Shown here piece by piece: positions 6,570-62,857 of a DNA stretch of 64,000 nucleotides. Source of the DNA: Zoogloea sp. (GTDB taxonomy: Bacteria > Pseudomonadota > Gammaproteobacteria > Burkholderiales > Rhodocyclaceae); NCBI GenBank assembly GCA_016703645.1, contig JADJBR010000007.1, forward strand, positions 682,001 through 746,000, read 5' to 3'. Under the pieces are notes generated by a model. It was given only the letters and a program-made list of their open reading frames with translations, did no database searches and was not told the origin of the DNA. The translations under genes and the position numbers were made by a program. Positions within the stretch are counted from its first letter, which is position 1; each line of letters opens with the position of its first letter.

Positions 6570-6881
6570 ATGCCCTACGTACAACGCGATGCCGATGGCG
6601 TCGTCACCGCAGCTTTCACCGCCTCGGGCCCCGACCACCGGGAGGAACTCCCGGCCGGCCATGCCGATCTCGCTCCCTTTTCCGGCCCTGCCGAGTTTGC
6701 ACGGCTGGACGCGGATCTGATCCGGGTGATTGAAGATGTGGTGGACGTCCTCATCGACCGGGGCCTCCTGCGCCTCACCGACCTCCCGCCCGATGCCCAA
6801 CGCAAGCTGCTTGCCCGCAAGGGCGCCCGGGCGCGCCTGCGACAGGGGCTCAATCTGCTGGGCCCCGACGACGTGATCTGA
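6570..6881 (+). CDS. Small conserved protein of unknown function
   Basis: A 103-residue cytoplasmic protein starting MPYVQRDADGVVTAAF. I chose the ATG at 6570 because it lies downstream of the ispH terminator; the longer frame from 6513 would overlap ispH and read through the terminator stem. From memory, proteins with this N-terminus occur in beta- and gammaproteobacteria and are sometimes labelled tryptophan synthase beta-like, which nothing in the sequence supports. The second half is helical and charged (LIRVIEDVVDVLIDRGLL, then a basic tail). Function unknown. Confidence 0.7.
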   Translation: MPYVQRDADGVVTAAFTASGPDHREELPAGHADLAPFSGPAEFARLDADLIRVIEDVVDVLIDRGLLRLTDLPPDAQRKLLARKGARARLRQGLNLLGPDDVI

Positions 6882-7129
6882 GCCCTTGTCGGCAGATCTG
6901 CAAAGCGACCCGGTTTCACGCGAGCGAACCCGCCCCCACGCCAATGCTGCTTCACACGCGGAGGCATGAAGCTTCAAGAGCGCCCGGCGACGGCCGCCTG
7001 GAGGCTCAAGTTCCCCCTGCGACACCCGTTATCCCTACAATCCGGATGCCATCGGCCTTGCCCATGGCATCTCCCCCGTCAGCTCCCCAGGCTGCCGGAC
7101 CGTGAAACGACCACGAAGCGATTGTGCCG

Positions 7130-11504: not shown

Positions 11505-12039
11505 ATGGCCACCTCGCCCTCCACAGCCAACGTCACCACCAATGCCCTCGCCAAAGGCACCGTCGTATTCGTCCAGGGCGAAGCCTACCTTCGTGACAAC
11601 AGCGGCAAGCTCAGCGCGATCAAGCCCGGAGACGTGGTAACGGAAGGTCAGGAAATCGTGACCCGAAACGGCGCGCTGGTTGAACTACGTCTTCCGGGCG
11701 GCGCAAAGGTCAGTATCGGCCCCGACCGCGAACTGCTGCTCAACGACGAGTTTTTTGCGTCGGCAAGCCCCGAGCGCAGCGAAAACGCCGTTTCCAGCCT
11801 TGGAGCCGACGCGGACCGGGTGATCCAGGCCTTGAACGCAGGCAAGGACCCCTTCGAAGATCTCGAAGACCCGGCCGCCGGCCTTACCGGTGGTGGTCTC
11901 GGTGACCAGACCCACGATTTCGTGCGCCTTGTCCGGATCCTCGAAGACGTGACCCCGGTTTCCTACGACTACGCCACCACGGGAGAGGGTGTCGAGTTTC
12001 TTCCTGCTGCAGCGCTCACGACGCAGACCATCAACACGC

Positions 12040-13160
12040 CCCCGCTTGCCACCGATGACAACATCACGGGCACCGAAGATCAGCCTCTGGTCGTGGACGT
12101 TCTTGCCAATGACAGCGACGCCAACAATGACGCCCTGAGTGTCACCGGCGCCACGGCCGTCAATGGACAGGTCACCATCAATCCCGATGGCAGCCTGCGC
12201 TATGTGCCCAACCCGAACTTCAACGGCACCGACACCGTCACTTACACCATCAGCGATGGACGGGGTGGCAGCTCGACGGCAACGGTGACCATCAACGTCA
12301 CCGCCGTCAATGACGGCCCCGTCGCTCTCCCCGACGTCGCCACCACACCCGAAGACACCCCGATCACGGTGGCCGTTCTCGGCAATGACAGCGACCCGGA
12401 CGGTGACCCCCTCACCGTTACCGGCGCCATCGTCGACCCCACGCGCGGAACCGTCGTGGTCAATCCTGACGGCACACTGAGTTTCACCCCGGCGCCGGAC
12501 ATCACCGGCACGGTCGTCATCACTTACACGGTCAGCGATGGCAAGGGCGGAACGGCAACGTCCACCCTCACGGTAACCGTCACCCCGGTCAATGACCAGC
12601 CCATCGCGAATCCGGACACCGCTACCACCCCCGAGAACACCCCGGTGACGGTATCCGTGCTGGGCAACGACAGTGATCCGGAAGGCGACCCCCTCACGGT
12701 CACAGGCGCAACGGTGGACCCGACGCTTGGCAGTGTCGTCGTCAATCCCGATGGCACCCTCACGTTCACACCGGCCAACAATACCAATGGCCCGGTCGTC
12801 ATTACTTACAGCATTTCCGATGGTCAGGGTGGTAGCGCCACCAGCACGGTCACGATTGACGTGACCCCGGTGAATGAAGCGCCCGTCGCCAACCCCAGCA
12901 CCGCCACCACCCCCGAAGAAACCCCGGTGACCCTCAACGTCCTGGGCAATGACTCCGATCCGGATGGCGACCCCCTCACCGTCACCAGTGCCACCGTCGA
13001 TCCGGCCAAGGGCAGCGTCAGCATCAACCCCGACGGCACCCTCGCCTTCAACCCGGCGCCCAACTTCAATGGGCCGGTGGAGATCACCTACGCCATCTCC
13101 GACGGCAAGGGCGGCTCCGCCACCAGTACCGTCACCGTCAACGTCACCCCGGCCAACGAT
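12040..13160 (+). repeat. Four tandem cadherin/Ig-like repeats in the adhesin
   Basis: Four diverged copies of about 280 bp begin near 12040, 12316, 12596 and 12878. Each encodes a TTPE-(D/E/N)-TP segment, LGNDSDPDGDPLTVT, an INPDGTL-like strand and ISDGKGGSATSTVTV. Five more copies lie farther on (near 15054, 15650, 16820, 18410 and 19005). The aspartate-rich NDSDPDGD motif suggests Ca2+ binding between domains. Confidence 0.85.
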
Positions 13161-14159
13161 GCACCCCTGGCCGTCAATGACAGCGCCACCACCACCGAGG
13201 ACAGCCCGGTCAGCCGCACACCGGCCACCGGCGTGCTCACCAACGATTCCGATATCGACAGCCCCAGCCTCACCGTCTCCGGTGTGCGCACGGGCACCAG
13301 CGGCACCTTCACCGCCCCCGGCGCCGCCGGCGTGACCCTCACCGGAACCTACGGCGCCCTGCTCATCCGTGCCGACGGCAGCTATACCTACACGCCCGGA
13401 ACCGCCGCCCAGGCCCTCAACACTGGCGACTCCGTCCAGGACGTCTTCTCCTATCAGCTCAGCGATGGCAGCCTCACCGCCACCGCCAACCTCTCCATCA
13501 CCGTCACCGGCGCCAATGACGCCGCCGTGATCACCGGTCTGGCCACCGGATCCGTCAAGGAAGACACCGCCGGACAGCTCACCGCCACCGGCACCCTCGC
13601 CGCCACCGATGTGGACAGCCCCGCCACCTTCACCCCGGCCAGCGCCAGCGGTACCTACGGCAGCTTCAACATCGCCGCCGATGGCACCTGGACCTACGTC
13701 CTCAACAACACGGCCGGCAACGTCCAGGCCCTGAACGAAGGCGACTCCCGCACCGAGACCTTCACCGTCACCACCGCCGACGGCACACCCCGCAACGTCA
13801 CCGTCACCGTCCTGGGCACCAACGAGACGCCGACCGTCGCCAACGTCACCGCCTCCGGCGCCGAAGATCCGGCCACTCCCATCCCCGTCACCCTCACCGG
13901 TGCCGATGTGGATGGCACCGTCACCAGCCTCACCCTGGCCGATCTGCCCGCCAACGGCACCCTCTACCGCGATGCCGCCATGACGCAGCCCGTCACCGCG
14001 GGCACACCCCTCGCGGCCACCGCGGGCGCCCTCACCCTCTACTTCCAGCCCGCTCCCAACTGGAACGGCAGCACCAGCTTCCACTTCACCGCCACCGACA
14101 ACAACGGCGGCTCATCGCCGCAGGCTACCGCCACCGTCAACGTCACACCCGTAAACGAC
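13161..14159 (+). repeat. 999-bp triple-domain unit, copy 1
   Basis: Encodes three linked domains: a VCBS-type domain starting APLAVNDSATTTEDSPVSR, a second starting AAVITGLATGSVKEDTAG, and a third starting TPTVANVTASGAEDPATPI. Nearly identical DNA recurs at 17100, 19281, 20279 and 21278. This copy differs slightly more from the others (for example GTSGTF instead of GTSGAF). Confidence 0.9.
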
Positions 14160-15160
14160 GCGGCCACTATCAGCACTGGCACGGGTAGCACCCAGGAAGA
14201 CACGGTGCTGCTGGCCACCGGAACCCTGACCATCACCGACCCGGACGCCGGTGAGGCCGCCTTCCAGGTCCAGACCGGCGTCCCCGGCACCTACGGCAGC
14301 TTCTCCATCAGTGAATCCGGCAACTGGACCTTCACCTTGGACAACGGCAACCCCATTGTCCAGAGCCTCGCCAACGGTGACTCACGCACCGAGTCCTTCA
14401 CCGTGCGCAGCGTGGATGGGACCGAAAGCACCGTCGTCGTCACCATTCTCGGCACCAACGAAACCATCGGCGCACCGGGCACCGGTGTCGTCAAGGAAGA
14501 CAACCCCATTTCCGCCAACGGCACCCTCACCGCCAGCGGTGGCGCCACCTTCGTGCCCCAGCCGGCCACACCGGGTACCTATGGCAGCTTCACCCTCAAC
14601 CCCGACGGTACCTGGACCTACCTCCTGGACAACCCCGCCAGCGTCGTCCAGAGCCTTGGCGAGGGCCAAACCCGCACCGAGGTCTTCCCCGTCACGCTTT
14701 CCGACGGCAGCACCAGCACCGTCACCATCACCGTGGTGGGCACCAACGACCCGGCACTGATCGGCCCGGGCACCGGCGACGTCACCGAGGACACCCAGCT
14801 CAGTACCGGCGGCACCCTGAGCATCACCGACGTGGACAGCGGTGAAGCCGGCTTCCAGCCGCAAACCAGCGTCGCCGGCACCTACGGCATCTTCAACCTG
14901 GATGCAGGCGGCAACTGGACCTACACGCTCAACAATGCGCACCCGAGCGTCCAAGCCCTGGGCGTTGGCGAGACACTCTCGGAAACCTTCCCGGTCTTCA
15001 GCACGGACGGCACCGCCAGCAGCGTCCTTGTCACCATCAACGGCACCAACGACGGCCCCGTCGCCAACCCCAGCACCGCCACCACCCCCGAAGAGACCCC
15101 GGTGACCCTCAACGTCCTGGGCAATGACTCTGATCCGGATGGCGACACCCTCACCGTCAC
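14157..15160 (+). repeat. About 1.0-kb duplicated block, first copy
   Basis: Begins GACGCGGCCACTATCAGC and runs through three VCBS-type domains into a cadherin-like repeat. It is almost identical to 15923-16924, 1,766 bases downstream. The second copy has lost two single Cs relative to this one (near 16454 and 16755), which breaks the reading frame there. Confidence 0.85.
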
Positions 15161-15922
15161 CAAGCCACCGTCGATTCTGCCAAGGGCAGCGTCAGCATCA
15201 ACCCCGACGGCACCCTCGCCTTCAACCCGGCCAACAACTTCAATGGCCCGGTGGAGATCACCTACGCCATCTCCGATGGCAAGGGCGGCTCCGCAACCAG
15301 TACCGTCACCGTCAACGTCACGCCCCTGCCCGACGCGGCCCAGCTAGGCACCGGCAGCGGCACCGTCAAGGAAGACACCCCCGCCCAGAGCACCGCCTCC
15401 GGCACCCTCTCCATCGTTGACCCCGATGCCGGCGAGGCCGTCTTCCAGGCCCGGACCAACGTCCCCGGCACCTACGGCAGCTTCAGCATCAACCCCGCCG
15501 GTGACTGGACCTACACCATCAACAACACCCTGCCCCTCGTCCAGGCCCTCAAGGAAGGCGAGACCCGTAACGAGTCCTTTACCGTGCTCAGCGCCGACGG
15601 CACCGCCACCACCGTCAGCCTCACCATCCTGGGCACCAACGACGGCCCCGTCGCCAACCCCAGCACCGCCACCACCCCCGAAGAGACCCCGGTGACCCTC
15701 AACGTCCTGGGCAATGACTCCGATCCGGATGGCGACACCCTCACCGTCACCAGCGCCACCGTCGATCCGGCCAAGGGCAGCGTCAGCATCAACCCCGACG
15801 GCTCCCTCGCCTTCAACCCGGCGCCCAACTTCAATGGGCCGGTGGAGATCACCTACGCCATCTCCGACGGCAAGGGCGGCTCCGCCACCAGTACCGTCAC
15901 CGTCAACGTCACGCCCCTGCCC

Positions 15923-16924
15923 GACGCGGCCACTATCAGCACTGGCACGGGTAGCACCCAGGAAGACACGGTGCTGCTGGCCGCCGGCACCCTGACCATC
16001 ACCGACCCGGACGCCGGTGAGGCCGCCTTCCAGGTCCAGACCGGCGTCCCCGGCACCTACGGCAGCTTCTCCATCAGTGAATCCGGCAACTGGACCTTCA
16101 CCCTGGACAACGGCAACCCCATTGTCCAGAGCCTCGCCAACGGTGACTCACGCACCGAGTCCTTCACCGTGCGCAGCGTGGATGGGACCGAAAGCACCGT
16201 CGTCGTCACCATTCTCGGCACCAACGAAACCATCGGCGCACCGGGCACCGGTGTCGTCAAGGAAGACAACCCCATTTCCGCCAACGGCACCCTCACCGCC
16301 AGCGGTGGCGCCACCTTCGTGCCCCAGCCGGCCACACCGGGTACCTATGGCAGCTTCGCCCTCAACCCCGACGGTACCTGGACCTACCTCCTGGACAACC
16401 CCGCCAGCGTCGTCCAGAGCCTTGGCGAGGGCCAAACCCGCACCGAGGTCTTCCCGTCACGCTTTCCGACGGCAGCACCAGCACCGTCACCATCACCGTG
16501 GTGGGCACCAACGACCCGGCACTGATCGGCCCGGGCACCGGCGACGTCACCGAGGACACCCAGCTCAGTACCGGCGGCACCCTGAGCATCACCGACGTGG
16601 ACAGCGGTGAAGCCGGCTTCCAGCCGCAAACCAGCGTCGCCGGCACCTACGGCATCTTCAACCTGGATGCAGGCGGCAACTGGACCTACACGCTCAACAA
16701 TGCGCACCCGAGCGTCCAAGCCCTGGGCGTTGGCGAGACACTCTCGGAAACCTTCCGGTCTTCAGCACGGACGGCACCGCCAGCAGCGTCCTTGTCACCA
16801 TCAACGGCACCAACGACGGCCCCGTCGCCAACCCCAGCACCGCCACCACCCCCGAAGAGACCCCGGTGACCCTCAACGTCCTGGGCAATGACTCTGATCC
16901 GGATGGCGACACCCTCACCGTCAC
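15923..16924 (+). repeat. About 1.0-kb duplicated block, second copy
   Basis: Near-identical partner of 14157-15160. It carries TTCCCGTC where the first copy has TTCCCCGTC, and TTCCGG where the first has TTCCCGG. Each is a one-base loss that shifts the adhesin frame. Comparison of the two copies is the direct evidence for both frameshifts. Confidence 0.85.
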
Positions 16925-17099
16925 CAGCGCCACCGTCGATCCGGCCAAGGGCAGCGTCAGCATCAACCCCGACGGCACCCTCGCCTTCAACCCGGCGCCC
17001 AACTTCAATGGCCCGGTGGAGATCACCTACGCCATCTCCGATGGCATGGGCGGCTCCGCCACCAGCACCGTCACCGTCAACGTCACCCCGGCCAACGAT

Positions 17100-18098
17100 G
17101 CACCGCTGGCCGTCAATGACAGCGCCACCACCACCGAGGACAGCCCGGTCAGCCGCACACCGGCCACCGGCGTGCTCACCAACGATTCCGATATCGACAG
17201 CCCCAGCCTCACCGTCTCCGGTGTGCGCACGGGCACCAGCGGCGCCTTCACCGCCCCCGGCGCCGCCGGCGTGACCCTCACCGGAACCTACGGCGCCCTG
17301 CTCATCCGTGCCGACGGCAGCTATACCTACACGCCCGGAACCGCCGCCCAGGCCCTCAACACCGGCGACTCCGTCCAGGACGTCTTCTCCTATCAGCTCA
17401 GCGATGGCAGCCTCACCGCCACCGCCAACCTCTCCATCACCGTCACCGGCGCCAATGACGCCGCCGTGATCACCGGTCTGGCCACCGGATCCGTCAAGGA
17501 AGACACCGCCGGACAGCTCACCGCCACCGGCACCCTCGCCGCCACCGATGTGGACAGCCCCGCCACCTTCACCCCGGCCAGCGCCAGCGGTACCTACGGC
17601 AGCTTCAACATCGCCGCCGATGGCACCTGGACCTACGTCCTCAACAACACGGCCGGCAACGTCCAGGCTTTGAACGAAGGCGATTCCCGCACCGAGACCT
17701 TCACCGTCACCACCGCCGACGGCACACCCCGCAACGTCACCGTCACCGTCCTGGGCACCAACGAGACGCCGACCGTCGCCAACGTCACCGCCTCCGGCGC
17801 CGAAGATCCGGCCACCCCCATCCCCGTCACCCTCACCGGCGCCGATGTGGATGGCGCCGTCACCAGCCTCACCCTGGCCGACCTGCCCGCCAACGGCACC
17901 CTCTACCGCGATGCCGCCATGACGCAGCCCGTCACCGCAGGCACGCCCCTCGCGGCCACCGCGGGCGCCGTCACCCTCTACTTCCAGCCCGCTCCCAACT
18001 GGAACGGAAGCACCAGCTTCCACTTCACCGCCACCGACAACAACGGCGGCTCCTCCAGCCAAGCCACGGCCAGCATCAATGTCACCCCGGTGACCGAT
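17100..18098 (+). repeat. 999-bp triple-domain unit, copy 2
   Basis: Same three-domain unit as 13161-14159, full length and in frame. It is followed by the 591-bp VCBS-plus-cadherin unit, whose copies start at about 18104 and 18695 (a related copy starts near 15341). Confidence 0.9.
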
Positions 18099-19280
18099 AC
18101 CGCCCAGCTGGGCACCGGCAGCGGCACCGTCAAGGAAGACACCCCCGCCCAGAGCACCGCCTCCGGCACCCTCAGCATCGTTGACCCCGATGCCGGCGAG
18201 GCCGTCTTCCAGGCCCAGACCGGCGTCCCCGGCACCTACGGCAACTTCAGCATCAACCCCGCCGGGGACTGGACCTACACCATTGACAACACCCTGCCCC
18301 TCGTCCAGGCCCTCAAGGAAGGCGAGACCCGTAACGAGTCCTTTACCGTGCTCAGCGCCGACGGCACCTCCACCACCGTCAGCCTCACCATCCTGGGCAC
18401 CAACGACGGCCCCGTCGCCAACCCCAGCACCGCCACCACCCCCGAAGAGACCCCGGTGACCCTCAACGTCCTGGGCAATGACTCCGATCCGGATGGCGAC
18501 ACCCTCACCGTCACTCAAGCCACCGTCGATTCTGCCAAGGGCAGCGTCAGCATCAACCCCGACGGCACCCTCGCCTTCAATCCGGCACCCAACTTCAATG
18601 GCCCGGTGGAGATCAGCTACGCCATCTCCGATGGTAAGGGCGGCTCCGCCACCAGTACCGTCACCGTCAACGTCACGCCCCTGCCCGATACCGCCCAGTT
18701 GGGCACCGGCAGCGGCACTGTCAAGGAAGACACCCCCGCCCAGAGCACCGCCTCCGGCACCCTCAGCATCGTTGACCCCGATGCCGGCGAGGCCGTCTTC
18801 CAGGCCCAGACCGGCGTCGCCGGCACCTACGGCAGCTTCAGCATCAACCCCGCCGGTGACTGGACCTACACCATCAACAACACCCTGCCCCTCGTCCAGG
18901 CCCTCAAGGAAGGCGAGACCCGTAACGAGTCCTTTACCGTGCTCAGCGCCGACGGCACCGCCACCACCGTCAGCCTGACCATCGTCGGCACCAACGACGG
19001 CCCCGTCGCCAACCCCAGCACCGCCACCACCCCGGAAGATCAGCCGGTCACCGTGAATGTGCTGGGCAATGACTCCGACCCCGACGGCGACACCCTCACC
19101 GTCACCAGCGCCACCGTTGATCCGGCCAAGGGCAGCGTCACCGTCAACCCCGACGGCTCCCTGACCTTCAACCCGGCTGCCAATACCAATGGCCCCGTGG
19201 TCGTCACCTACACCATCTCCGATGGCAAGGGCGGCTCCGCCACCAGTACCGTCACCGTCAACGTCACCCCGGCCAACGAT

Positions 19281-22276
19281 GCACCGCTGGCCGTCAATGA
19301 CAGCGCCACCACCACCGAGGACAGCCCGGTCAGCCGCACACCGGCCACCGGCGTGCTCACCAACGATTCCGATATCGACAGCCCCAGCCTCACCGTCTCC
19401 GGTGTGCGCACGGGCACCAGCGGCGCCTTCACCGCCCCCGGCGCCGCCGGCGTGACCCTCACCGGAACCTACGGCGCCCTGCTCATCCGTGCCGACGGCA
19501 GCTATACCTACACGCCCGGAACCGCCGCCCAGGCCCTCAACACCGGCGACTCCGTCCAGGACGTCTTCTCCTATCAGCTCAGCGATGGCAGCCTCACCGC
19601 CACCGCCAACCTCTCCATCACCGTCACCGGCGCCAATGACGCCGCCGTGATCACCGGTCTGGCCACCGGATCCGTCAAGGAAGACACCGCCGGACAGCTC
19701 ACCGCCACCGGCACCCTCGCCGCCACCGATGTGGACAGCCCCGCCACCTTCACCCCGGCCAGCGCCAGCGGTACCACGGCAGCTTCAACATCGCCGCCGA
19801 TGGCACCTGGACCTACGTCCTCAACAACACGGCCGGCAACGTCCAGGCTTTGAACGAAGGCGATTCCCGCACCGAGACCTTCACCGTCACCACCGCCGAC
19901 GGCACACCCCGCAACGTCACCGTCACCGTCCTGGGCACCAACGAGACGCCGACCGTCGCCAACGTCACGCCTCCGGCGCCGAAGATCCGGCCACCCCCAT
20001 CCCCGTCACCCTCACCGGCGCCGATGTGGATGGCGCCGTCACCAGCCTCACCCTGGCCGACCTGCCCGCCAACGGCACCACTCTACCGCGATGCCGCCAT
20101 GACGCAGCCCGTCACCGCAGGCACGCCCCTCGCGGCCACCGCGGGCGCCGTCACCCTCTACTTCCAGCCCGCTCCCAACTGGAACGGAAGCACCAGCTTC
20201 CACTTCACCGCCACCGACAACAACGGCGGCTCATCGCCGCAGGCTACCGCCACCGTCAACGTCACCCCGGCCAACGATGCACCGCTGGCCGTCAATGACA
20301 GCGCCACCACCACCGAGGACAGCCCGGTCAGCCGCACACCGGCCACCGGCGTGCTCACCAACGATTCCGATATCGACAGCCCCAGCCTCACCGTCTCCGG
20401 TGTGCGCACGGGCACCAGCGGCGCCTTCACCGCCCCCGGCGCCGCCGGCGTGACCCTCACCGGAACCTACGGCGCCCTGCTCATCCGTGCCGACGGCAGC
20501 TATACCTACACGCCCGGAACCGCCGCCCAGGCCCTCAACACCGGCGACTCCGTCCAGGACGTCTTCTCCTATCAGCTCAGCGATGGCAGCCTCACCGCCA
20601 CCGCCAACCTCTCCATCACCGTCACCGGCGCCAATGACGCCGCCGTGATCACCGGTCTGGCCACCGGATCCGTCAAGGAAGACACCGCCGGACAGCTCAC
20701 CGCCACCGGCACCCTCGCCGCCACCGATGTGGACAGCCCCGCCACCTTCACCCCGGCCAGCGCCAGCGGCACCTACGGCAGCGTCAATATCGCCGCCGAT
20801 GGCACCTGGACCTACGTCCTCAACAACACGGCCGGCAACGTCCAGGCTTTGAACGAAGGCGATTCCCGCACCGAGACCTTCACCGTCACCACCGCCGACG
20901 GCACACCCCGCAACGTCACCGTCACCGTCCTGGGCACCAACGAGACGCCGACCGTCGCCAACGTCACCGCCTCCGGCGCCGAAGATCCGGCCACCCCCAT
21001 CCCCGTCACCCTCACCGGCGCCGATGTGGATGGCGCCGTCACCAGCCTCACCCTGGCCGACCTGCCCGCCAACGGCACCCTCTACCGCGATGCCGCCATG
21101 ACGCAGCCCGTCACCGCAGGCACGCCCCTCGCGGCCACCGCGGGCGCCGTCACCCTCTACTTCCAGCCCGCTCCCAACTGGAACGGAAGCACCAGCTTCC
21201 ACTTCACCGCCACCGACAACAACGGCGGCTCATCGCCGCAGGCTACCGCCACCGTCAACGTCACCCCGGCCAACGATGCACCGCTGGCCGTCAATGACAG
21301 CGCCACCACCACCGAGGACAGCCCGGTCAGCCGCACACCGGCCACCGGCGTGCTCACCAACGATTCCGATATCGACAGCCCCAGCCTCACCGTCTCCGGT
21401 GTGCGCACGGGCACCAGCGGCGCCTTCACCGCCCCCGGCGCCGCCGGCGTGACCCTCACCGGAACCTACGGCGCCCTGCTCATCCGTGCCGACGGCAGCT
21501 ATACCTACACGCCCGGAACCGCCGCCCAGGCCCTCAACACCGGCGACTCCGTCCAGGACGTCTTCTCCTATCAGCTCAGCGATGGCAGCCTCACCGCCAC
21601 CGCCAACCTCTCCATCACCGTCACCGGCGCCAATGACGCCGCCGTGATCACCGGTCTGGCCACCGGATCCGTCAAGGAAGACACCGCCGGACAGCTCACC
21701 GCCACCGGCACCCTCGCCGCCACCGATGTGGACAGCCCCGCCACCTTCACCCCGGCCAGCGCCAGCGGTACCTACGGCAGCTTCAACATCGCCGCCGATG
21801 GCACCTGGACCTACGTCCTCAACAACACGGCCGGCAACGTCCAGGCTTTGAACGAAGGCGATTCCCGCACCGAGACCTTCACCGTCACCACCGCCGACGG
21901 CACACCCCGCAACGTCACCGTCACCGTCCTGGGCACCAACGAGACGCCGACCGTCGCCAACGTCACCGCCTCCGGCGCCGAAGATCCGGCCACCCCCATC
22001 CCCGTCACCCTCACCGGCGCCGATGTGGATGGCGCCGTCACCAGCCTCACCCTGGCCGACCTGCCCGCCAACGGCACCCTCTACCGCGATGCCGCCATGA
22101 CGCAGCCCGTCACCGCAGGCACGCCCCTCGCGGCCACCGCGGGCGCCGTCACCCTCTACTTCCAGCCCGCTCCCAACTGGAACGGAAGCACCAGCTTCCA
22201 CTTCACCGCCACCGACAACAATGGCGGCACCTCCAGCCAAGCCACGGCCAGCATCAATGTCACGCCTGTAAATGAC
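19281..22276 (+). repeat. Three head-to-tail copies of the 999-bp unit
   Basis: Copies start at 19281, 20279 and 21278 (998 and 999 bases apart). They are nearly base-for-base identical, pointing to recent amplification or gene conversion. The first of the three contains all the local damage: a missing T near 19775, a missing C near 19968 and an extra A at 20080, judged against the other copies. The last copy leads into unique sequence at about 22277. Confidence 0.92.
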
Positions 22277-25200
22277 CCACCGGTGGCCATTGCAGACACC
22301 GGCAGCACCGATCAGAACACCCTCCTGTCGAAGGACGCTGCCAGCGGGGTGCTGACCAACGACAGCGACATCGATGGAGGGAGCTTGAATGTGACCTCGA
22401 TCTCCTTCGGAAGTGGTAGTGGTGTCCCGGTGGCCTCCGGCGGCACAACCGTCAACGGCGCCTTTGGTAGCTTGCTGATTGCCCCGAACGGCAGCTACAC
22501 CTATACCCCGGGCGATGCGGCAAAGGCGCTTGTCGCCGGCCAGTCAGCCAACGATGTTTTCACCTACAGCGTTTCTGACGGCAATGGCGGCACCGCGACA
22601 ACCACGCTGACCATCCAGGTGAACGGCCTGAACGATGCGCCAGTGATCGGCGGTATTGCGACCGGCAATGTGTCCGAAGACGGAACCCTCGCCACGGGTG
22701 GCAACCTGACCATCACCGACCCCGATGCGGGCCAGTCTTCATTCATTGCCCAGACTGCCCAGGGCACCTATGGCACGCTGAGCTTGCAATCAAACGGCAG
22801 CTGGAGCTACAGCCTCGATAACGCATCCACCAACGTGCAGTCCCTGAAACAGGGAGAGGTGGTCGAGGACCACTTCAACGTTCAAGCCGCCGATGGCACG
22901 GTGACCACTTTGGTCATCAATGTCACGGGCACAAACGATGAGCCGGTGGTCGGAACAGCCACCGTGAATGTTTCCGAGGAGGGCTTGGCGGCAGGTATCG
23001 CTGACAGCAACGGCAGCACCGACACCACAAACCTGACCACCGCCGGTGGCACGATCAGCGTATCCGACGTGGATGGCAATCCCCTCAACGTAACGCTGAC
23101 CGCACCGACGACAGCGCTGACATCCAATGGCGTCGCCATCACCTGGACAGGCAGTGACTCCAAGCTGCTGATCGGCAGTGCCGGTAGCGTGGAAATTGTT
23201 CGGGCGACGATCAGCGATGACGGCACCCACACGGTGAAACTATCTGGCCCGATCGACCATCCCGTCACGACCGAGGAAGACCTCGTCACCCTGGACCTGG
23301 GGATCAAGGTCAGCGATGGCGTGACCACCACCACCAGCACCCTGACGGTCAACGTGGAGGACGATGCACCCAAGGCCGGCTCCGTCGTCCAGGCCATCGA
23401 AGTTCCGCCCCAGGACACCAATCTCCTGATCATTCTCGACAACTCCGGCAGCATGAACACGGCAGATGGCGTAGGTGGCACGACACGCCTGCGCTCGGCG
23501 ATCACGGCGCTCAATCAGTTGATCGACACTTACGACACGCTCGGTGAAGTTCGCATCCGCATCGTCACTTTCAACAGCGCCGCGTCGGCCGTGGGAACCA
23601 CATGGACGACAGTCACGGTAGGCAAGGGGCAACTGGCAGCAGTTACCCTGGGAGGGACCACCAACTACGATGCGGCAATTGCCGCCGGACAAACGGCATT
23701 CACGTCGACGGGCAAACTCGCCTCCGGCCAGAATGTGGCTTACTTCCTGTCCGATGGTGTTCCCAATTCCGGCACGGGCATCGGAACCGCCGACGAGACA
23801 GCCTGGAAAGCCTTCCTGACCGCCAACGACATCACCAGTTACGCCCTCGGCATGGGAACCGGCGCATCTCAGGCTCCGCTGAATCCGATTGCCTATGATG
23901 GCCTGACGGACACCAATCTCGACGCCAAGGTCATCAGCGACTTCAGTCAACTGTCAAGCGCGCTGCAGGCAACCGTTCCCCAGTCGGCCAGTGGCGACAT
24001 TCTTTCCGGTGGCCTGCTTGGCGGTGCGTCCGGGTTCGGTGCCGACGGTGGCCACATTCAGTCAATCAAGGTGGATGGAATCACCTACACCTATGACCCG
24101 ACGGGCAGCACCAGTGTCTCGGTCACGGGCGGAACCAGTCAGGGCACCTACGATCCGGCCACTCACCAACTGACCGTACGCACTGACGACGGCGGCACCC
24201 TTGTGGTGAACATGAACACCGGTGGCTACAGCTATACGCCCCGGCCAACCGTGACCACCCCGATTGTTGACGGTTTCGACTTCGTGTTGATCGACAAGGA
24301 CGGCGACACCGCGGGGGCGAGCGTGACCTTCAACGTGAGCCGTGAGGCCGAGGCCGTTGTCACCCTGACCAGCACCACCCAGCTCATCGACTCAAGCACC
24401 CTCGGGCTGGCCGGGGAGTACTACGGCTACAACGAGACCACCTCAGGTGTCACCCGTACCCACGCCGACGACACGACGCTGGGCAATCTTGACAGGCTCT
24501 CCGACATGACGACCATCGTCAATGGACGCAGCGGGGAGACCATTCTCGGTACTTACGAAGAGGCGCCGGCCTCGGGATCTGACGCGACGTTCAGCGCCGA
24601 CAAGATCGACTATGGATTCGGCTACACCACCGGCAGCACGACCGCGGCGGCAGTCAACGGTAATCTGGGCAACAACCCGACGCTCGGGGCCAACATGGAT
24701 GTGAACTCGGGGGCTCTCTACAACTTCCTCCGCGGCGGCACGACCGGCTCCGACGCGGTCGATCTGCAGACCACCACGGGTGTTGGCAACACCACCGATT
24801 CCGGTCTCCGTTTCGTTGGCCTGATGAACGTGGCGGGTGGCACCTACGACATCCGCGTTACCGCAGATGACGGCTTCCGGGTCAATGTCGGTGGTGCAAC
24901 CGTGGCCATGTTCGATGGCATCCAGTCGCCCACGGAACGTGTTTTCACCAATATCAGTCTGGAGAGCGGCCTGCAGCCCATTGAGATCGTCTATTGGGAG
25001 CAAGGGGGCAACGCACGCTTGCGCATCGAGGTCAAGTTGAGTAGCGAGCCGGTCACCGCCTACAAGACCCTGGGCACCGAGGAGTTCGCCCTGTTCACGC
25101 CCACCAGCGCCCCGACACTGACCGAGACGCAGGACATCATCGAGAGTACGACCCAGAACGGTGCCTGGCTGCTCCGCTCCGGCGAGCGGCTTGACGGCAC

Positions 25201-25740
25201 GGACGGAAATGACCACATCACCGGCAGTGACGCGAAGGACGTGATCTACGCCGGCCTTGGCAATGACACGGTAACCGGTGGCAGCGGCGCCAGCCTGATT
25301 TCCGGTGGGGCCGGCAATGACACGCTCACCGGTGGCCTGGGCTCGGATACCTTCAAGTGGTCCCTGGGTGATGCGGGCACGGCCGGGGCCCCGGCCATCG
25401 ACGCCATCACCGACTTCGACAAGAGTGCCGCTCTCAGCGGCGGTGACGTGCTTGACCTCAGTGATCTACTACAGGGTGAAAGTCATAGCGGAGTGACCCC
25501 GGGCAATCTGGGTAGCTACCTGCACTTCGAGAAATCGGGCACCGACACCGTCGTGCATATCAGCAGTACCGGGGGCTATACCGGCGGCACCTTCAGCCCG
25601 GCGGCAACCGATCAGAAGATCGTGCTGCAAGGTGTGGATCTGACCAACAGCGGGGCCCTGAGCACCGATGCGCAGATCATTCAGGATCTGCTCACCAAGG
25701 GCAAACTGAGCGCCGACTGACGCCAGGAAGACCGCAAACA

Positions 25741-57967: not shown

Positions 57968-58198
57968 CTACTTGCGGCGCAGAAAAAACTCAAAGGCATT
58001 GTCAGGCAGATCGGCCTGGGACACCAACTCATTGCCCGTCTGCCGCGCAAAGGCGGCAAAATCCTTCGAAGACCCGGGATCGGTCGCCAGCACGTGCAGC
58101 ACCTGCCCCGGCTGCATCTCGGCCAGCGCCTTCTTGGCACGCAGGATGGGCAGCGGGCAGTTCAAGCCGCGGGCATCCACTTCCTTGTCGAAATCCAT
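57968..58198 (-). CDS. tusA: TusA-family sulfur carrier protein
   Basis: A 76-residue cytoplasmic sulfur carrier of the TusA/SirA/YeeD fold. The catalytic motif is LNCPLPILRAKKAL (CPxP, Cys near residue 14), in the family context VDARGLNCPLPIL. It accepts persulfide sulfur from a desulfurase and passes it on, for example for tRNA 2-thiolation or other sulfur transfer; which pathway is served here is not shown by the neighbours. It is divergent from the roadblock gene, with a 234-base gap. Confidence 0.92.
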   Translation of the reverse strand: MDFDKEVDARGLNCPLPILRAKKALAEMQPGQVLHVLATDPGSSKDFAAFARQTGNELVSQADLPDNAFEFFLRRK

Positions 58199-58432: not shown

Positions 58433-58798
58433 ATGCGCTCCAACATGCTTCAAACCGTTCTCAACGACCTCAATGGCACGTCTGCGGACATCGAGGCCTC
58501 GGCCATCATTTCATCCGATGGCCTGATGATGGCGGCCCTGCTGCCCAATACCGTCGACGAAGACCGGGTTGGTGCCATGAGCGCCGCCATGCTGTCCCTC
58601 GGCGACCGCACGGCGCGGGAACTCTCCCGGGGCAACCTCGACCAGGTGCTGATCAAGGGCGAGAAGGGTTATGTGCTGATGGTCCAGGCCGGTGCGGATG
58701 CCGTGCTCACCGTGATGGCCAAGCCCAATGCAAAACTCGGGCTGGTGTTCCTTGACGTCCGCCGGGCCGCTGATGCCATCGGCCGCATCCTGGGCTGA
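58433..58798 (+). CDS. Roadblock/LC7 domain protein (MglB-like)
   Basis: A 121-residue, single-domain cytoplasmic protein of the roadblock/LC7 fold. The pattern is IEASAIISSDGLMMAALLPN (strand-turn-strand near residues 21-40), VGAMSAAMLSLGDRTARELS (central helix near 46-65), DQVLIKGEKGYVLMVQAG and DAVLTVMAKPNAKLGLVFLD (near 90-109). In MglB and similar proteins this fold acts on partner Ras-like GTPases, as GTPase-activating protein or exchange factor. A Ras-like GTPase lies 3 kb downstream in the same run of genes, so that partnership is likely. First gene of the operon. Confidence 0.92.
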   Translation: MRSNMLQTVLNDLNGTSADIEASAIISSDGLMMAALLPNTVDEDRVGAMSAAMLSLGDRTARELSRGNLDQVLIKGEKGYVLMVQAGADAVLTVMAKPNAKLGLVFLDVRRAADAIGRILG

Positions 58799-58811
58799 CG
58801 GACATCCGGCA

Positions 58812-59279
58812 ATGGATGACATGGTCGCCAGCAACGACGCCTGTTCCGCGCATCTCCTCACCTTCGCAGACGGCACCCGGCGTCAGGTTTACGTGACGAG
58901 CGTCGAAACGCCCTACCCCCGCGGCAAGCTCATCGTTTCCCGCACGGACACGCGCGGCATCATCACCCAGTGCAATCCGTCCTTTGTGGACATGTCCGGC
59001 TATCCCGCGGCCGAGCTGATCGGCCAGCCCCACTGCATCCTGCGCCACCCCGACATGCCCGCCGCCGCATTCCGCGATCTCTGGGATACCGTCCAGTCCG
59101 GGCGTCAGTGGAACGGCTACGTCAAAAACCTTCGCAAGGATGGCGGTCACTACTGGGTTTATGCAACCGTGGTCCCCAACGTCCGCGACGGCATGATCGT
59201 CGGCTACACCTCGGTGCGGCGGGAGCCCTCCCGCGACAAGGTCGCCGCCGCCGAAGCCCTCTATCGGGAAATGCGCTGA
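58812..59279 (+). CDS. Stand-alone PAS protein, Aer-like
   Basis: 155 residues; no kinase, cyclase or chemoreceptor domain. The PAS domain spans about residues 40-140 and closely follows the Aer-type pattern: RGIITQCNPSFVDMSGY, ELIGQPHCILRHPDMPAAAF, then RDLWDTVQSGRQWNGYVKNL and GGHYWVYATVVPNVRDG followed by GYTSVRREPS. In Aer this PAS type binds FAD and reads redox state, so a flavin is a reasonable guess. The N-terminal 38 residues are unlike Aer. It starts 13 bases after the roadblock gene. Output must be through protein contacts, probably with operon partners. Confidence 0.9.
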   Translation: MDDMVASNDACSAHLLTFADGTRRQVYVTSVETPYPRGKLIVSRTDTRGIITQCNPSFVDMSGYPAAELIGQPHCILRHPDMPAAAFRDLWDTVQSGRQWNGYVKNLRKDGGHYWVYATVVPNVRDGMIVGYTSVRREPSRDKVAAAEALYREMR

Positions 59280-59281
59280 CC

Positions 59282-60028
59282 ATGGCCTTCAACTTCACCG
59301 TAAGCCCGAGCTTCCCCAACGAGCGCATTTCCGACTGGTACATTTTCAACACGTGGATGCAGCGCAGCCTGGATCTGCCCATCCACCTGGAGCTTCACAA
59401 CGACTTTGGCGCCCAGCGTCAGGCCATCGCAGCGGGCAAGGTGGACATGATCTATGCCAACCCCTTCGATGCATCGCTCCTTGTCCGGGAACAGGGCTTC
59501 CGTGCGATCGCGCGCCCCGAAGGCAAACCCGATGAAATGGTCATCGTCGTGGCGGCCGACAGCCCCACACAGGCCGTGCCCGACCTTGCGGCCGGCAGTC
59601 GCATCGCCTGTGCCGACGATCCCTGCGTCAACACCATCGGGCGCATCCTTCTCGAACCGGCCAACCTCGACGGCACCAATACAACCGAACTGCGCCGCGA
59701 GACCTACATCCAGGTGGCCAAAGCCCTGCTCCGCGGAGATGCCGACCTCGGTTTCATGCCCGTGGAAGCCTTTGAGAGTCTCTCATCCCTGGTGCGGCGC
59801 GACTTGAGAGTCCTGGTTGCCAGCCAGATCCAGGTGATCCACCATGCCTTCCTGATCGGCCCAATCCTCTTTGAACACGCGACCGCCATCACCGGGCTGC
59901 TGCTGTCCATGCATCAGTCCGACAAGGGTCAGGCCATGCTCACGGCACTGGGCGCCCAGCGCTGGCAGGCATTGGAGCAGGAAGACGTGGAGTTCATGAT
60001 CGACATCATCTCCACGCTGACCACGTGA
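59282..60028 (+). CDS. PhnD-like binding protein without signal peptide
   Basis: 248 residues, starting at the ATG two bases after the PAS gene. The fold is that of phosphate/phosphonate ABC-transporter binding proteins: FNTWMQRSLDLPIHLELHND, IAAGKVDMIYANPFDASLLV, REQGFRAIARPEGKPDEMVI and LLRGDADLGFMPVEAFESL. It begins MAFNFTVSPSFPNERISDW with no signal peptide or lipobox, so it should stay in the cytoplasm. No permease or ATPase genes accompany it. It therefore looks like a ligand sensor in a signalling operon, not a transport component. The ligand is unknown. Confidence 0.87.
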   Translation: MAFNFTVSPSFPNERISDWYIFNTWMQRSLDLPIHLELHNDFGAQRQAIAAGKVDMIYANPFDASLLVREQGFRAIARPEGKPDEMVIVVAADSPTQAVPDLAAGSRIACADDPCVNTIGRILLEPANLDGTNTTELRRETYIQVAKALLRGDADLGFMPVEAFESLSSLVRRDLRVLVASQIQVIHHAFLIGPILFEHATAITGLLLSMHQSDKGQAMLTALGAQRWQALEQEDVEFMIDIISTLTT

Positions 60029-60498
60029 AGCCCTTCCTGATTGATCCCGATGCCCCCGGGCGCATTCGCCCGCCGGCCCCACCGGCAGTCTTCGGGCTGC
60101 CGGTGCGCACCCTTGGCATCGCCTCCCACTGGTGCAGCCCGGCCACAGGGGCCTTGCTGGCTGCCGAGGTCGGGCGTCGGCCCCGCAACCTGCACACCCA
60201 TCTGCAACGGATCTCCCTGTGGGCAGACCTGGATGACAGCGCTGCCGTCACGGCGGCAATCGTCGATTTCTGGATCGTCCTGGGCCCCTGCGGCAGGGCT
60301 CTGCGCCAACGTCTCCTGCAGCGCCACGCCGCCACCCTAGCCGCTGCCGGGCTGGCCGACTACCTGAGCGCGCGTCTTGAGCCCGGCCTGGACAGGCATG
60401 ACCCACAGGTCGCCTGCCCCGGCAGCGTCCTGGCCAGACCGGTCGAGGGCAGCCTCCGGTTCATGCGCCACTCTGCCACCGCAACGGATCTGCCGTGA
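60025..60498 (+). CDS. Hypothetical protein of the GTPase operon
   Basis: 157 residues; not recognised. It starts at a GTG that overlaps the preceding stop (GTGA), and its own stop overlaps the next GTG in the same way, so it is translated in step with its neighbours. Pro-rich N-terminus (IRPPAPPAVFGLPVRTLGIA), then an all-helical middle (LHTHLQRISLWADLDDSAAV, RQRLLQRHAATLAAAGLADY). No membrane helix, signal peptide or enzymatic motif. Probably a scaffold or adaptor, by context only. Confidence 0.72.
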   Translation: MKPFLIDPDAPGRIRPPAPPAVFGLPVRTLGIASHWCSPATGALLAAEVGRRPRNLHTHLQRISLWADLDDSAAVTAAIVDFWIVLGPCGRALRQRLLQRHAATLAAAGLADYLSARLEPGLDRHDPQVACPGSVLARPVEGSLRFMRHSATATDLP

Positions 60499-61682
60499 CC
60501 CCCTCCAAGGCCGCGCCCCCGATGAGCGGAACCTGCGCCCTCCACCTGCTTCACGTGGGCAGCATGGACGCAAGGCTTATCGGACTGTCCATCGAGCGCC
60601 ACTGGACGCGCGCCGTACATCTCGTCAACACCCTCGAAGAGGCGCACGTCGTGCTGGTGGATTGTGATCGCCCCGGCATCGAGGCTGCCCTCGAGCGTCT
60701 CGCCGGAAGTCCGCGGATCGGAATCGTCTATTACGCCTTTCACCCCCGCGACCACGCCTCGCGCTTTCACCCACGGCCCGTCCTGGGCAAGCCGCTCAAT
60801 CTCGAGTCCTTGCCGGTGACGCTGGCCCAGGCCAGGGCCGACGCGTCGCGCCTGATCGCTGCGGCGCCACCGCGGGCACCGACGGCGCGCCAACCCCCGC
60901 CCCACCCGCACACCGCGCCACACCAGCAGCCGCCCATGCCCCCGGCGCCGCAGGGCCAAGGCCTCATGGGCGAGGACGAACGGGATTTCTGCGGCGCCAT
61001 GGATGACATACCGGCCGCGCCGGGCGGGACACTGCCCGACAAACTCTTCTTCAACCCGGATGATTACCTCGTCGGCCGCCTGCACAAGGCCCTTGCCCAG
61101 GCCGGTGCCAGCGGGCGCCCCCATGTCATCGCCGGCTTGCAGCGCCTCATCGGCGTCCAGTCCCGGCCGCAGCCCATCTGCGTCACAGCCTTCCGCGAGA
61201 ACCAGTTGCGCCCACTGGCGATGACGCAGCTCCCCGAGGCGACCGGGCGCATTGTCAGCACACCGATCATCGACGATGCCGCAAACACCCTGGTCCATTT
61301 CGCCGCTGAGGACTTTCTCTGGAATGCCGCGGCCTGGGCCGCCCGGGGACGCCTGCCCAGCGGCACCAATCCCTATCTGCCGGTCCGACTCCGGGCCTGG
61401 CCGAACTTCACAAGCGCGTGCGTTTCGCCCCACGCCCTGCGAATCGTCGCCCTATGGACCCGGGTGCCGGCCAGTCCGGTGGACATCGCGACACGCCTTG
61501 GCATCCCGCATCGCTACGTTTTCTCGGTATATTCGGCAGCCCATTTTGCCAATCTGCTCGACACAAGTTTCCAGCCCGAGCAGACTGCTGCCGCGTCGCC
61601 GCCCGCTCCGCCCATGGCCGAACGCCAGGCACGCCCCTCAATCCTTTCCCGAATCCTCAGAAAGCTCCGCGATGCGGTCTGA
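60495..61682 (+). CDS. Receiver-like / winged-helix-like protein of the GTPase operon
   Basis: 395 residues. The N-terminal 125 resemble a response-regulator receiver: LHLLHVGSMDARLIGL, an acidic strand end VVLVDCDRP near residue 55, and a late KPLN where receivers have their conserved Lys-Pro. Not all phosphorylation residues are evident. A Pro/His linker follows (about 130-165). The C-terminal domain (about 170-370) is unrecognised but ends in a helix-turn-helix-like stretch, RIVALWTRVPASPVDIATRL then GIPHRYVFSVYSAAHFANLL, like a winged helix. A basic tail (SILSRILRKLRDAV) ends it. Likely a signal-integrating partner or DNA-binding output. Confidence 0.72.
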   Translation: MTPSKAAPPMSGTCALHLLHVGSMDARLIGLSIERHWTRAVHLVNTLEEAHVVLVDCDRPGIEAALERLAGSPRIGIVYYAFHPRDHASRFHPRPVLGKPLNLESLPVTLAQARADASRLIAAAPPRAPTARQPPPHPHTAPHQQPPMPPAPQGQGLMGEDERDFCGAMDDIPAAPGGTLPDKLFFNPDDYLVGRLHKALAQAGASGRPHVIAGLQRLIGVQSRPQPICVTAFRENQLRPLAMTQLPEATGRIVSTPIIDDAANTLVHFAAEDFLWNAAAWAARGRLPSGTNPYLPVRLRAWPNFTSACVSPHALRIVALWTRVPASPVDIATRLGIPHRYVFSVYSAAHFANLLDTSFQPEQTAAASPPAPPMAERQARPSILSRILRKLRDAV

Positions 61683-62232
61683 ACGTGCCCGCCACAACAA
61701 GATCATCTTCTCCGGCACCGTTGGCGCAGGAAAGAGCACTGCGATCAACGCTCTCAGCGACATTCCGACTGTCAGCACCGAAGCGGTCGCCAGCGACGAC
61801 ACCGCCCGCCTCAAGCGCACCACCACCGTCGCCATGGACTATGGCGTCCTCAACCTGCCCGGTGGCGAGAAGGTCATGCTCTACGGCACCCCTGGTCAGG
61901 AGCGCTTCAGCTTCATGTGGGACATCCTGTCTGAAGGCGGGATCGGCCTGATCCTGTTGATCAACAACGCCAATACTGCCCCCCTGAAGGATCTGGAAGG
62001 CTATCTGGCGGCATTCAAACAGTTCATATCCGGCACGGCCGTGGCCATCGGCATCACGCACATGGACCGGGCACCCGAGCCCGGCCTTGATGCCTACCGC
62101 AGTCACCTGATCGCGCTCGGAATCACACCGCTGCCTGCCGTATTCCGTGCCGACGCCCGCAAGCGGGAGGACGTGGCCATGCTGGTCAAGGCGCTCTTGT
62201 ATACCCTCAACCCCGGATTGAGCGATGCTTGA
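61672..62232 (+). CDS. Small Ras-like GTPase (MglA-like)
   Basis: 186 residues from the ATG at 61672, overlapping the previous gene by 11 bases. G1/P-loop: FSGTVGAGKSTAINAL (near residues 13-28). Switch I: TARLKRTTTVAMDYG. G3: LYGTPGQERFSFMWD (near 78-92), where the usual Asp of DxxGQ is replaced, as in MglA-type and related bacterial GTPases. G4: IGITHMDRA in place of NKxD. No lipid-anchor motif or membrane helix. The GTPase would switch between GDP and GTP states under control of the roadblock proteins encoded in the same operon. Family certain, biological process unknown. Confidence 0.92.
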   Translation: MRSERARHNKIIFSGTVGAGKSTAINALSDIPTVSTEAVASDDTARLKRTTTVAMDYGVLNLPGGEKVMLYGTPGQERFSFMWDILSEGGIGLILLINNANTAPLKDLEGYLAAFKQFISGTAVAIGITHMDRAPEPGLDAYRSHLIALGITPLPAVFRADARKREDVAMLVKALLYTLNPGLSDA

Positions 62233-62857
62233 AATTGTTCCCGGCTCATACCTGACCGTTACCCCTTACGGCGCGTGGCGTGCCGTGTCCCGCAGTGATC
62301 CGGGCATGGATCGAGGCATCCTGCTCGGCGTCCTCCAGGAAGCCATGAGTCCCTTGCTGAGCATGGAAGCCCTGCGGGCATGGACCCCGGGAGCGACGCG
62401 CGACGAGGCCTTCGAAGTGTTGCTCAAGCTCCAGGAGGAAGCCTGCCTCGAAGCCTGGCCAAGCCCCCGGATGGCGCCCATCGGCACCCTTGAGTCCACC
62501 CTTCCGGGCCTTCTGGCTGCCCTCAGCGACACGGGGCAGGCGGTGCTCGCAGACCGGATGGGATTCTGCCTCGCCATCGCCGGCTACCCCAGTGACACCG
62601 GCGAGGCCCTCGCCGCCGTCGGTGCGGACATCCTGTCCGTTGCCGAGCGCCAGGCCCAGGCCTTGTCACGCCTGGGAGAACATCTCCTGGATGGCTGGGG
62701 CAACGTGGATGCGGCCGGCATCAGCGGCCTGAGCTTCTGGCCGATACATATCGGCCGGACACGCCTTGCCCTCACGGTGAGCGGGCGACCACGCTTCAAC
62801 CAGCGCGCCTTCGCAGAGCTCGTATGGGCGCTCTATGTCCGCTACGGCAAAGTCTGA
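62225..62857 (+). CDS. Second roadblock-like protein of the GTPase operon
   Basis: 210 residues, overlapping the GTPase gene by eight bases. The N-terminal half (MLEIVPGSYLTVTPYGAWRA to about residue 95) is helical and not recognised, with GILLGVLQEAMSPLLSMEAL and DEAFEVLLKLQEEACLEAWP. The C-terminal half (about 100-205) has the strand-helix-strand order of a roadblock/LC7 fold: GFCLAIAGYPSDTGEALAAV, GADILSVAERQAQALSRLGE and IHIGRTRLALTVSGRPRFNQ. It is the last gene of the run and may be the dedicated regulator of the adjacent GTPase. Confidence 0.72.
   Translation: MLEIVPGSYLTVTPYGAWRAVSRSDPGMDRGILLGVLQEAMSPLLSMEALRAWTPGATRDEAFEVLLKLQEEACLEAWPSPRMAPIGTLESTLPGLLAALSDTGQAVLADRMGFCLAIAGYPSDTGEALAAVGADILSVAERQAQALSRLGEHLLDGWGNVDAAGISGLSFWPIHIGRTRLALTVSGRPRFNQRAFAELVWALYVRYGKV

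Follow-up and report, generated by a model that had tools for sequence, protein, structure and literature searches.

The window analysed here is a 64,000-nucleotide stretch of Zoogloea sp. DNA (assembly GCA_016703645.1, contig JADJBR010000007.1, positions 682,001 to 746,000). At 58433-62857 on the + strand it carries an operon of seven genes for an MglA-like small GTPase, roadblock proteins and putative sensors. An earlier sequence-only reading had described the same seven genes as a Ras-like signalling operon without a kinase; the coordinates and junctions have been verified (a 13-base gap, a 2-base gap and then overlaps of 4, 4, 11 and 8 bases, in gene order), and no kinase was found among the seven proteins using Pfam. 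The genes, with the expectation values (E) of their Pfam matches, are as follows:

58433-58798, + strand: gene 1, MglB-type roadblock/LC7 protein of 121 amino acids (aa); Robl_LC7, 1.6e-15; proposed coupler between sensors and GTPase.
58812-59279, + strand: gene 2, stand-alone Aer-type PAS protein, 155 aa; PAS_3, 7.9e-16; predicted flavin adenine dinucleotide (FAD) sensor.
59282-60028, + strand: gene 3, cytosolic PhnD-like binding protein, 248 aa; Phosphonate-bd, 7.1e-40.
60025-60498, + strand: gene 4, small protein, 157 aa; related to the middle portion of a tetratricopeptide repeat (TPR) protein.
60495-61682, + strand: gene 5, Group 3 partner protein, 395 aa; degenerate receiver at about aa 14-123, linker, C-terminal winged-helix-like region.
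61672-62232, + strand: gene 6, MglA-like small GTPase, 186 aa; ATP_bind_1, 8e-11; Ras-type and Group 3 motifs.
62225-62857, + strand: gene 7, winged-helix/roadblock fusion, 210 aa, the "second roadblock"; Robl_LC7, 0.025, below the cut-off.

The host genome is 4.99 Mb in size, the GTPase finds its nearest counterparts among named loci in Zoogloea, and the operon genes recur together in other beta- and gammaproteobacterial genomes. The ratio of nonsynonymous to synonymous substitution (dN/dS) lies between 0 and 0.42 in all 35 comparisons of the seven genes with five close relatives (four Zoogloea and one proteobacterial metagenome-assembled genome), and all seven genes are under purifying selection. 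The strongest constraint is seen in the gene 1 roadblock, with 93-100% identity to those relatives, versus 81-98% for the GTPase, and a dN/dS of 0-0.044. Over 15 loci compared, gene 1 (63-91% identity) is the best conserved of the seven in 13 and the second best in the other two; the PAS protein is kept at 60-75%, while genes 4, 5 and 7 drop to 26-48% in local alignments outside the two nearest loci. Mean roadblock identity is 75.9% among operons with the PAS and PhnD-like genes (153 pairs) versus 67.7% among those without (253 pairs), and mean GTPase identity in the same sets is 57.3% versus 59.3%, relatedness being uncontrolled in both comparisons.

Group 3 MglA systems, as described in the text of a 2014 survey by Wuichet and Sogaard-Andersen (PMC4316618), comprise MglA, one or two MglB proteins and a protein with a receiver-like N-terminus, a variable linker and a winged-helix-like C-terminus, and occur in beta- and gammaproteobacteria. 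Their GTPases have GTPGQ at G3, threonine in place of arginine at G2, DAR at G5 and a G4 without lysine (same text). The gene 6 protein has a P-loop, TTTVAMD, YGTPGQ, THMD replacing [NT]KxD, and DAR, the last four in agreement with Group 3; across 25 GTPase sequences, GTPGQ and both the D and the R at the DAR position are invariant. The marks of Group 1 (Myxococcus/Thermus type) -- TVPGQ at G3 and an arginine finger beside the G2 threonine -- are not seen, all 25 rows having GTPGQ and TT. Against the Protein Data Bank (PDB), the family profile finds Sec4/Rab GTPases (best 5e-12). Gene 5 has the partner architecture, as judged by its model, its Foldseek receiver matches and its variable linker, and the one or two coupled MglB-type proteins are present in gene 1 (Robl_LC7) and gene 7 (roadblock fold). 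By motifs and architecture, then, the core of gene 5, GTPase and roadblocks fits the Group 3 MglA system already known. The MglA-like label given to gene 6 in the sequence-only reading thus stands; its statement that no system of this composition had been described holds for the whole set, but not for the core. The host genome also has a second gene 5-GTPase pair (G000:C9:26778-27299; L002, L162), its GTPase 45% identical, with no recognised roadblock gene adjoining.

Gene 5 has no Pfam match itself. Its AlphaFold2 model (predicted local distance difference test score, pLDDT, 84.8; predicted template-modelling score, pTM, 0.61) gave receiver domains as the top Foldseek matches, the best at 3.2e-4; the C-terminus is winged-helix-like by the secondary structure of the model only, with no Foldseek match behind it. 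The receiver reads HVGSMD, without the acidic pair after strand 1. The Asp at the end of strand 3 and the Lys-Pro after strand 5 are present in the window protein and largely kept across the family, some relatives have one acidic residue at the pair position, and one (L076) has D-E close by. Gene 5 thus lacks one of the marks of a phosphorylated receiver (acidic pair, Asp and Lys-Pro) and has been rejected as a true phospho-receiver. Because the pair is missing, the receiver of the window protein is read as a pseudo-receiver, probably not phosphorylated; it had been called receiver-like and winged-helix-like, which model and Foldseek matches bear out for the receiver fold, with this qualification as to its chemistry.

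For gene 7, the AlphaFold2 model (pLDDT 90.3) shows a helical/winged-helix part at about aa 9-80 and a roadblock at 89-207, roadblock and MglB structures are the top Foldseek matches (best 3e-4), and Robl_LC7 is matched by 18 of 21 family members at E 0.5. As modelled, the protein is a winged-helix/roadblock fusion, in keeping with its earlier description as a second roadblock-like protein. Gene 4 also has no Pfam match itself; weak TPR_14 matches are found in 7 of 16 members of its family (best 0.00088), and its profile aligns with the middle portion of a longer TPR protein (probability 98, E 2.6e-13 for that single comparison), whose gene immediately precedes gene 5 in five operons which have no gene 4. 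A PDB search with gene 4 gave 0.034 at best. FimV was tried as the identity of the upstream TPR protein and rejected, since none of the five proteins gave a FimV match, while a different protein, downstream in L119, gave one.

The profile of the gene 2 family has as its best solved relative the PAS domain of Escherichia coli Aer (8dik, E 4.2e-45, positions 29-153 of 156), as the Aer-like label had implied. RHP and Trp100 are invariant in nine sequences; in the alignment with 8dik, RHPDMP and the Trp are present, Asp being replaced by Glu in two of the nine orthologues. The RHPD and Trp79 positions both have roles in the Aer PAS, and gene 2 combines the Aer-type fold with both of them. The protein is predicted to bind FAD, which in Aer reports the state of electron transport (PMC13401364, in the text available). 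The profile of the gene 3 family matches PhnD (4.6e-7), PtxB (1.4e-5) and a PtxB-like Aio protein (0.002). In phosphite and phosphonate binders the ligand motif is STS-H, as given in the text of PMC5700983; the STS part, which is the part examined, is absent at that place in 13 PhnD-like sequences, the window protein having DPCVNT there. The start of the window protein has no signal-peptide-like stretch. Gene 3 thus shows neither the STS motif nor the signs of periplasmic export expected of PhnD and PtxB, and with the motif absent it has been rejected as a phosphonate sensor; its earlier description as a cytoplasmic PhnD-like protein is supported. In the five close relatives, dN/dS for PAS and PhnD-like genes is 0.07-0.22. 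At another locus (L164) a PhnD-like gene at 7268-8143 is preceded by an open reading frame at 6849-7292, read as SCP2-like, in place of roadblock and PAS.

With the gene 7 profile, the system was found in 47 of the 370 genomes of a class-wide sample (37 of 273 genera), and a Group 3 GTPase is also present, at E 1e-6, in 42 of the 46 genomes with gene 7 other than the host. Many of the loci were found by likeness to the window GTPase or to the gene 7 profile. Conserved co-occurrence among relatives had been set beforehand as the test of the sequence-only reading; the outcome favours that reading, gene order being found to vary with the blocks staying together. The order gene 4 - gene 5 - GTPase - gene 7 - roadblock occurs in 27 of 51 fetched loci, and in 15 of these 51, plus one broken locus, the roadblock gene is followed by PAS and PhnD. 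In Zoogloea the blocks are swapped (roadblock - PAS - PhnD - gene 4 - gene 5 - GTPase - gene 7), while UBA652 (L088) has a third order, the composition being kept across all three. The operon blocks, that is, move between lineages but stay together.

The PAS and PhnD-like genes behave as a pair. Among 66 clustered loci (those of L032-L177 with gene 5, GTPase, gene 7 and roadblock together, some present twice), 31 have both, two have PhnD only and 33 have neither; thinned to 43 clusters at 85% GTPase identity, the counts are 18 with both, none with PAS only, two with PhnD only and 23 with neither. The cluster counts exclude loci without a GTPase and L001-L031, whose flanks are short, and some loci are cut by contig ends. 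Of the two PhnD-only loci, L157 is broken and retains a fragment of PAS, and L060 has three PhnD and two roadblock genes. On a tree of GTPase plus gene 7, the state of the pair changes 10 times on the best tree and at least five times by well-supported branches, some of the long branches being unsafe; with at least five supported changes, the pair has been gained or lost repeatedly as a unit. The PhnD clade to which gene 3 belongs (matches down to E 1.9e-38, the next being 1.1e-22) is found in 22 of the 370 genomes, all of them among the 47 with gene 7, and in none of the 323 without (Fisher p ~1e-22); the search covered whole genomes, though with a profile built from copies beside the GTPase, which favours such matches. 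In 18 of the 22 genomes the clade gene lies at the operon.

Other sensors take the same place in relatives, where stand-alone genes for protoglobin, FIST or CZB proteins lie beside the roadblock gene in some operons. In a set of 46 sampled genomes, to which the FIST and CZB searches were confined, the named loci lying outside it, 46 protoglobin matches were found. Ten of these lie at the operon (10 genomes, eight genera, seven families), against roughly 0.05 expected by a rough estimate; five are in the interval between gene 7 and roadblock (one of these together with PAS-PhnD), one is after the roadblock and four are between roadblock and gene 4. FIST is at the operon in two of 29 matches, both in one genus, and CZB in one of 69; these operon-linked figures, like the PhnD counts above and the PilT and FliG counts below, were made by hand from listings. 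On the GTPase plus gene 7 tree, L125, an operon with protoglobin, and L142, one with CZB, are placed among PAS-PhnD operons. In one genome, G450, two operons of this kind coexist, one carrying PAS-PhnD and the other CZB. In all, 25 of the 43 clusters carry a scored sensor type.

Two further arrangements were seen. Marinobacter, Gallionella and others (L055-L057, L059, L068, L073, L075, L077-L083, L085, L087 and more, one protein of each kind having been scanned) have a second Group 3 arrangement, in which the GTPase is followed by a fusion of ABC-ATPase and dual-specificity phosphatase, then by roadblocks and often by a ferredoxin-reductase-globin protein. Limnobaculum (L107), without a gene 7, has a GTPase and two roadblock genes; a protoglobin frame overlaps the second of these.

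The best explanation overall, to which a probability of about 0.58 is given, is that the operon encodes a GTPase module of the Group 3 MglA type together with an input cassette, whose sensors act by way of the roadblock. Roadblock proteins are regulators of MglA-like GTPases of the GTPase-activating protein (GAP) type. Because varied sensors adjoin the roadblock gene and roadblocks are regulators of that type, a path from sensor to roadblock to GTPase is the simplest one. Hints in the same direction are the greater likeness of the roadblocks, though not of the GTPases, within the PAS-PhnD set (relatedness uncontrolled), the globin-roadblock fusion HGbRL (PMC4476040) and the role proposed for the roadblock in conservons (PMC13343842). 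Of the two sensors, the flavin PAS protein would report on redox or electron transport and the cytosolic PhnD-like one on a small ligand; both would act in trans on the roadblock encoded just before them, changing its GAP-type action on the GTPase. Signalling would proceed without kinase or phosphotransfer, the gene 5 pseudo-receiver serving as a binding domain, and the GTP-bound GTPase would be recognised by the products of genes 5 and 7 and of the TPR-related gene 4. As the sensor place in relatives holds protoglobin, FIST or CZB, one switch would be set by differing signals, mostly of an oxygen or redox type. That the sensors are inputs to the GTPase system is well supported by the genomic evidence. 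What the analysis shows is the gene content, the co-occurrence, the exchange of sensors, the family assignments and the predicted folds; contact between sensor and roadblock, the GAP role, the direction of signalling and the FAD are inferred.

The likeliest output would be control of type IV pili, adhesion or polarity, towards which the evidence points weakly. PilT is present in all 47 genomes with gene 7 versus 270 of the 323 without. Pili are favoured because no gene 7 genome lacks PilT, whereas nine lack FliG, and because of a result from Snodgrassella, where flares seen after mutation of an orphan Group 3 mglB were taken to reflect a change in motility by type IV pili (PMC11112851, in the text available). 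This is the sole experiment on a Group 3 system that a literature search found. Co-occurrence by itself was rejected as a ground for a link specific to type IV pili, since FliG enrichment is similar.

Several observations weigh against the explanation just given. As to the core, no MglA structure is among the matches listed (60 of 82) in the PDB search with the GTPase profile, and the GTPase is patchy among relatives outside the genus (34 of 149 genomes, 15 of 123 genera). Six loci (L129, L143, L145, L146, L148 and L155) have gene 7 and sensors with no recognised GTPase gene adjoining; among the 10 protoglobin loci, five show none beside them; at E 1e-6, four of the 46 other gene 7 genomes (G234, G276, G324, G464) have no Group 3 GTPase, and in G234 and G276, which are among those with sensor operons of this kind, no GTPase was found genome-wide at that threshold. 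As to the sensors, 18 of the 43 clusters have none of the scored types, so that sensors are not obligatory, and three of these 18 (L068, L073, L075) carry a ferredoxin-reductase-globin gene nearby. In four of the 22 genomes with the PhnD clade (G172, G301, G395, G469), its gene lies away from the operon, scoring lower (best E 1e-68 to 1e-75); the host genome too has, besides the operon copy, a second, unlinked cytosolic PhnD-like gene (L163, G000:C9:530612-531316); the 16 kb examined there contain no gene recognised as roadblock, PAS or GTPase. As to the output, FliG is also enriched, in 38 of 47 genomes with gene 7 versus 167 of 323 without, which leaves the pilus association unspecific. The description of the operon as self-contained has likewise proved too strong, relatives swapping or lacking sensors and a few operons having no GTPase gene.

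A different output from the same input side has also to be considered: the winged helices of gene 5, and of gene 7, would bind DNA in a GTPase-controlled manner, with gene expression tuned by the sensors. Such a role was suggested for Group 3 systems in the text of PMC4316618, and both models do have winged-helix-like regions. However, Pfam matches named for helix-turn-helix domains are weak and scattered (best 0.0013 for gene 7, in one of 21 sequences, and 0.079 for gene 5, in one of 22), and the two regions are unlike by profile (probability 0.3), for which reason a common origin has been rejected. Winged helices can, moreover, act as protein-binding domains. The proposal in the sequence-only reading that gene 5 gives the output is retained with transcription as one option, the TPR-type partner pointing equally to output through protein-protein contact; a transcription switch as such is considered unlikely.

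It is improbable that PAS and PhnD serve chemotaxis or some other pathway and only share a promoter with the GTPase genes. CetB, a stand-alone FAD-PAS subunit working with a receptor (PMC13401364, in the text available), counts for that idea and against sensors of a GTPase. The idea is also favoured by L144, where a chemoreceptor-type gene lies about 270 bases beyond the roadblock gene, and by the clade PhnD-like genes lying away from the operon in five genomes, the host included. Yet in each of the three gene orders PAS and PhnD accompany the roadblock gene, other sensors occupy the same place, and the PhnD clade is absent from the 323 genomes without gene 7. Finally, a plain MglA/MglB polarity module, with sensors and extra genes as lineage decoration without a signalling role, would agree with the Group 3 core motifs and with the 18 of 43 sensor-less clusters, but is made very improbable by the conservation of PAS, which retains 60-75% identity across the 15 loci, against 26-48% for genes 4, 5 and 7 outside the two nearest loci, by the dN/dS of 0.07-0.22 for PAS and PhnD, and by the repeated gain or loss of the pair as a unit.

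The proposed Group 3 module with sensors acting through its roadblock has a wider bearing. Bacterial Ras-like GTPases are known mainly as polarity switches; in the open-licence literature, taken without supplementary files, no description of a PAS/PhnD input side of Group 3 systems was found. The exchangeable sensors are concrete candidate inputs -- flavin redox state, haem ligand, the zinc-binding CZB domain and the PhnD ligand -- and point to the roadblock as the meeting place of signal and GTPase. A more tentative generalization, given rather less than an even chance, is that Group 3 roadblocks are general sockets for exchangeable soluble one-domain sensors acting in trans, with no kinase or phosphate transfer. 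If so, the sensor-socket roadblock would be a signal-transduction architecture beside one-component, two-component and chemosensory systems. The operon proteins are small and soluble, which makes their biochemistry feasible.

Elsewhere in the window, a TusA-like small gene, so labelled from sequence reading alone, lies at 57968-58198 on the - strand, divergent from the operon. Long reading frames of 1280, 424, 995 and 1956 aa, strongly skewed and high in guanine plus cytosine, occupy 11505-25720 on the + strand and include, at 12294-13156, a tandem repeat of 282 bases with a consensus read as VCBS/Big-like; this may be a giant adhesin gene. A tRNA-Asn call by ARAGORN at 17984-18073 (- strand) falls inside these long coding frames and is probably false. 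An Rfam scan of the 64-kb window gave no match.

Among known systems, the conservons have a GTPase operon with CvnA, a histidine-kinase-like sensor, and CvnC, a DUF742 protein; no match to either was found in the seven proteins (Pfam, E 1). Conservons and other actinobacterial G protein systems share with the present operon a sensor part, roadblock, small protein and GTPase, and differ in having CvnA and CvnC; the roadblock has been proposed as their link between sensor and GTPase (PMC13343842, in the text available). The Group 3 MglA systems share the GTPase G3, G4 and G5 motifs, the receiver-linker-winged-helix partner, the roadblocks and the distribution in beta- and gammaproteobacteria; they differ in that the main text, apart from its supplementary table, names no PAS, PhnD, globin, FIST, CZB or TPR-related gene, and gene 7 here is a winged-helix/roadblock fusion (PMC4316618).

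With Aer and CetA/CetB the operon shares an Aer-type FAD PAS, the CetB PAS subunit also acting in trans, but it has no receptor signalling domain and is linked to roadblock and GTPase genes instead (PMC13401364, in the text available). The Myxococcus system of MglA, MglB and SgmX likewise has a small GTPase, a roadblock GAP and a TPR protein, SgmX, through which MglA-GTP works, SgmX binding it and driving type IV pili; the Myxococcus GTPase, however, belongs to Group 1, and the likening of gene 4 to SgmX is one of analogy, not homology (PMC7519303, in the text available). A parallel to a sensor meeting a roadblock is HGbRL of Methylacidiphilum, a natural fusion of globin and roadblock in which a haem sensor is joined to a roadblock domain; that is a single protein from another phylum, whereas here sensor and roadblock are separate proteins encoded in one operon (PMC4476040, in the text available).

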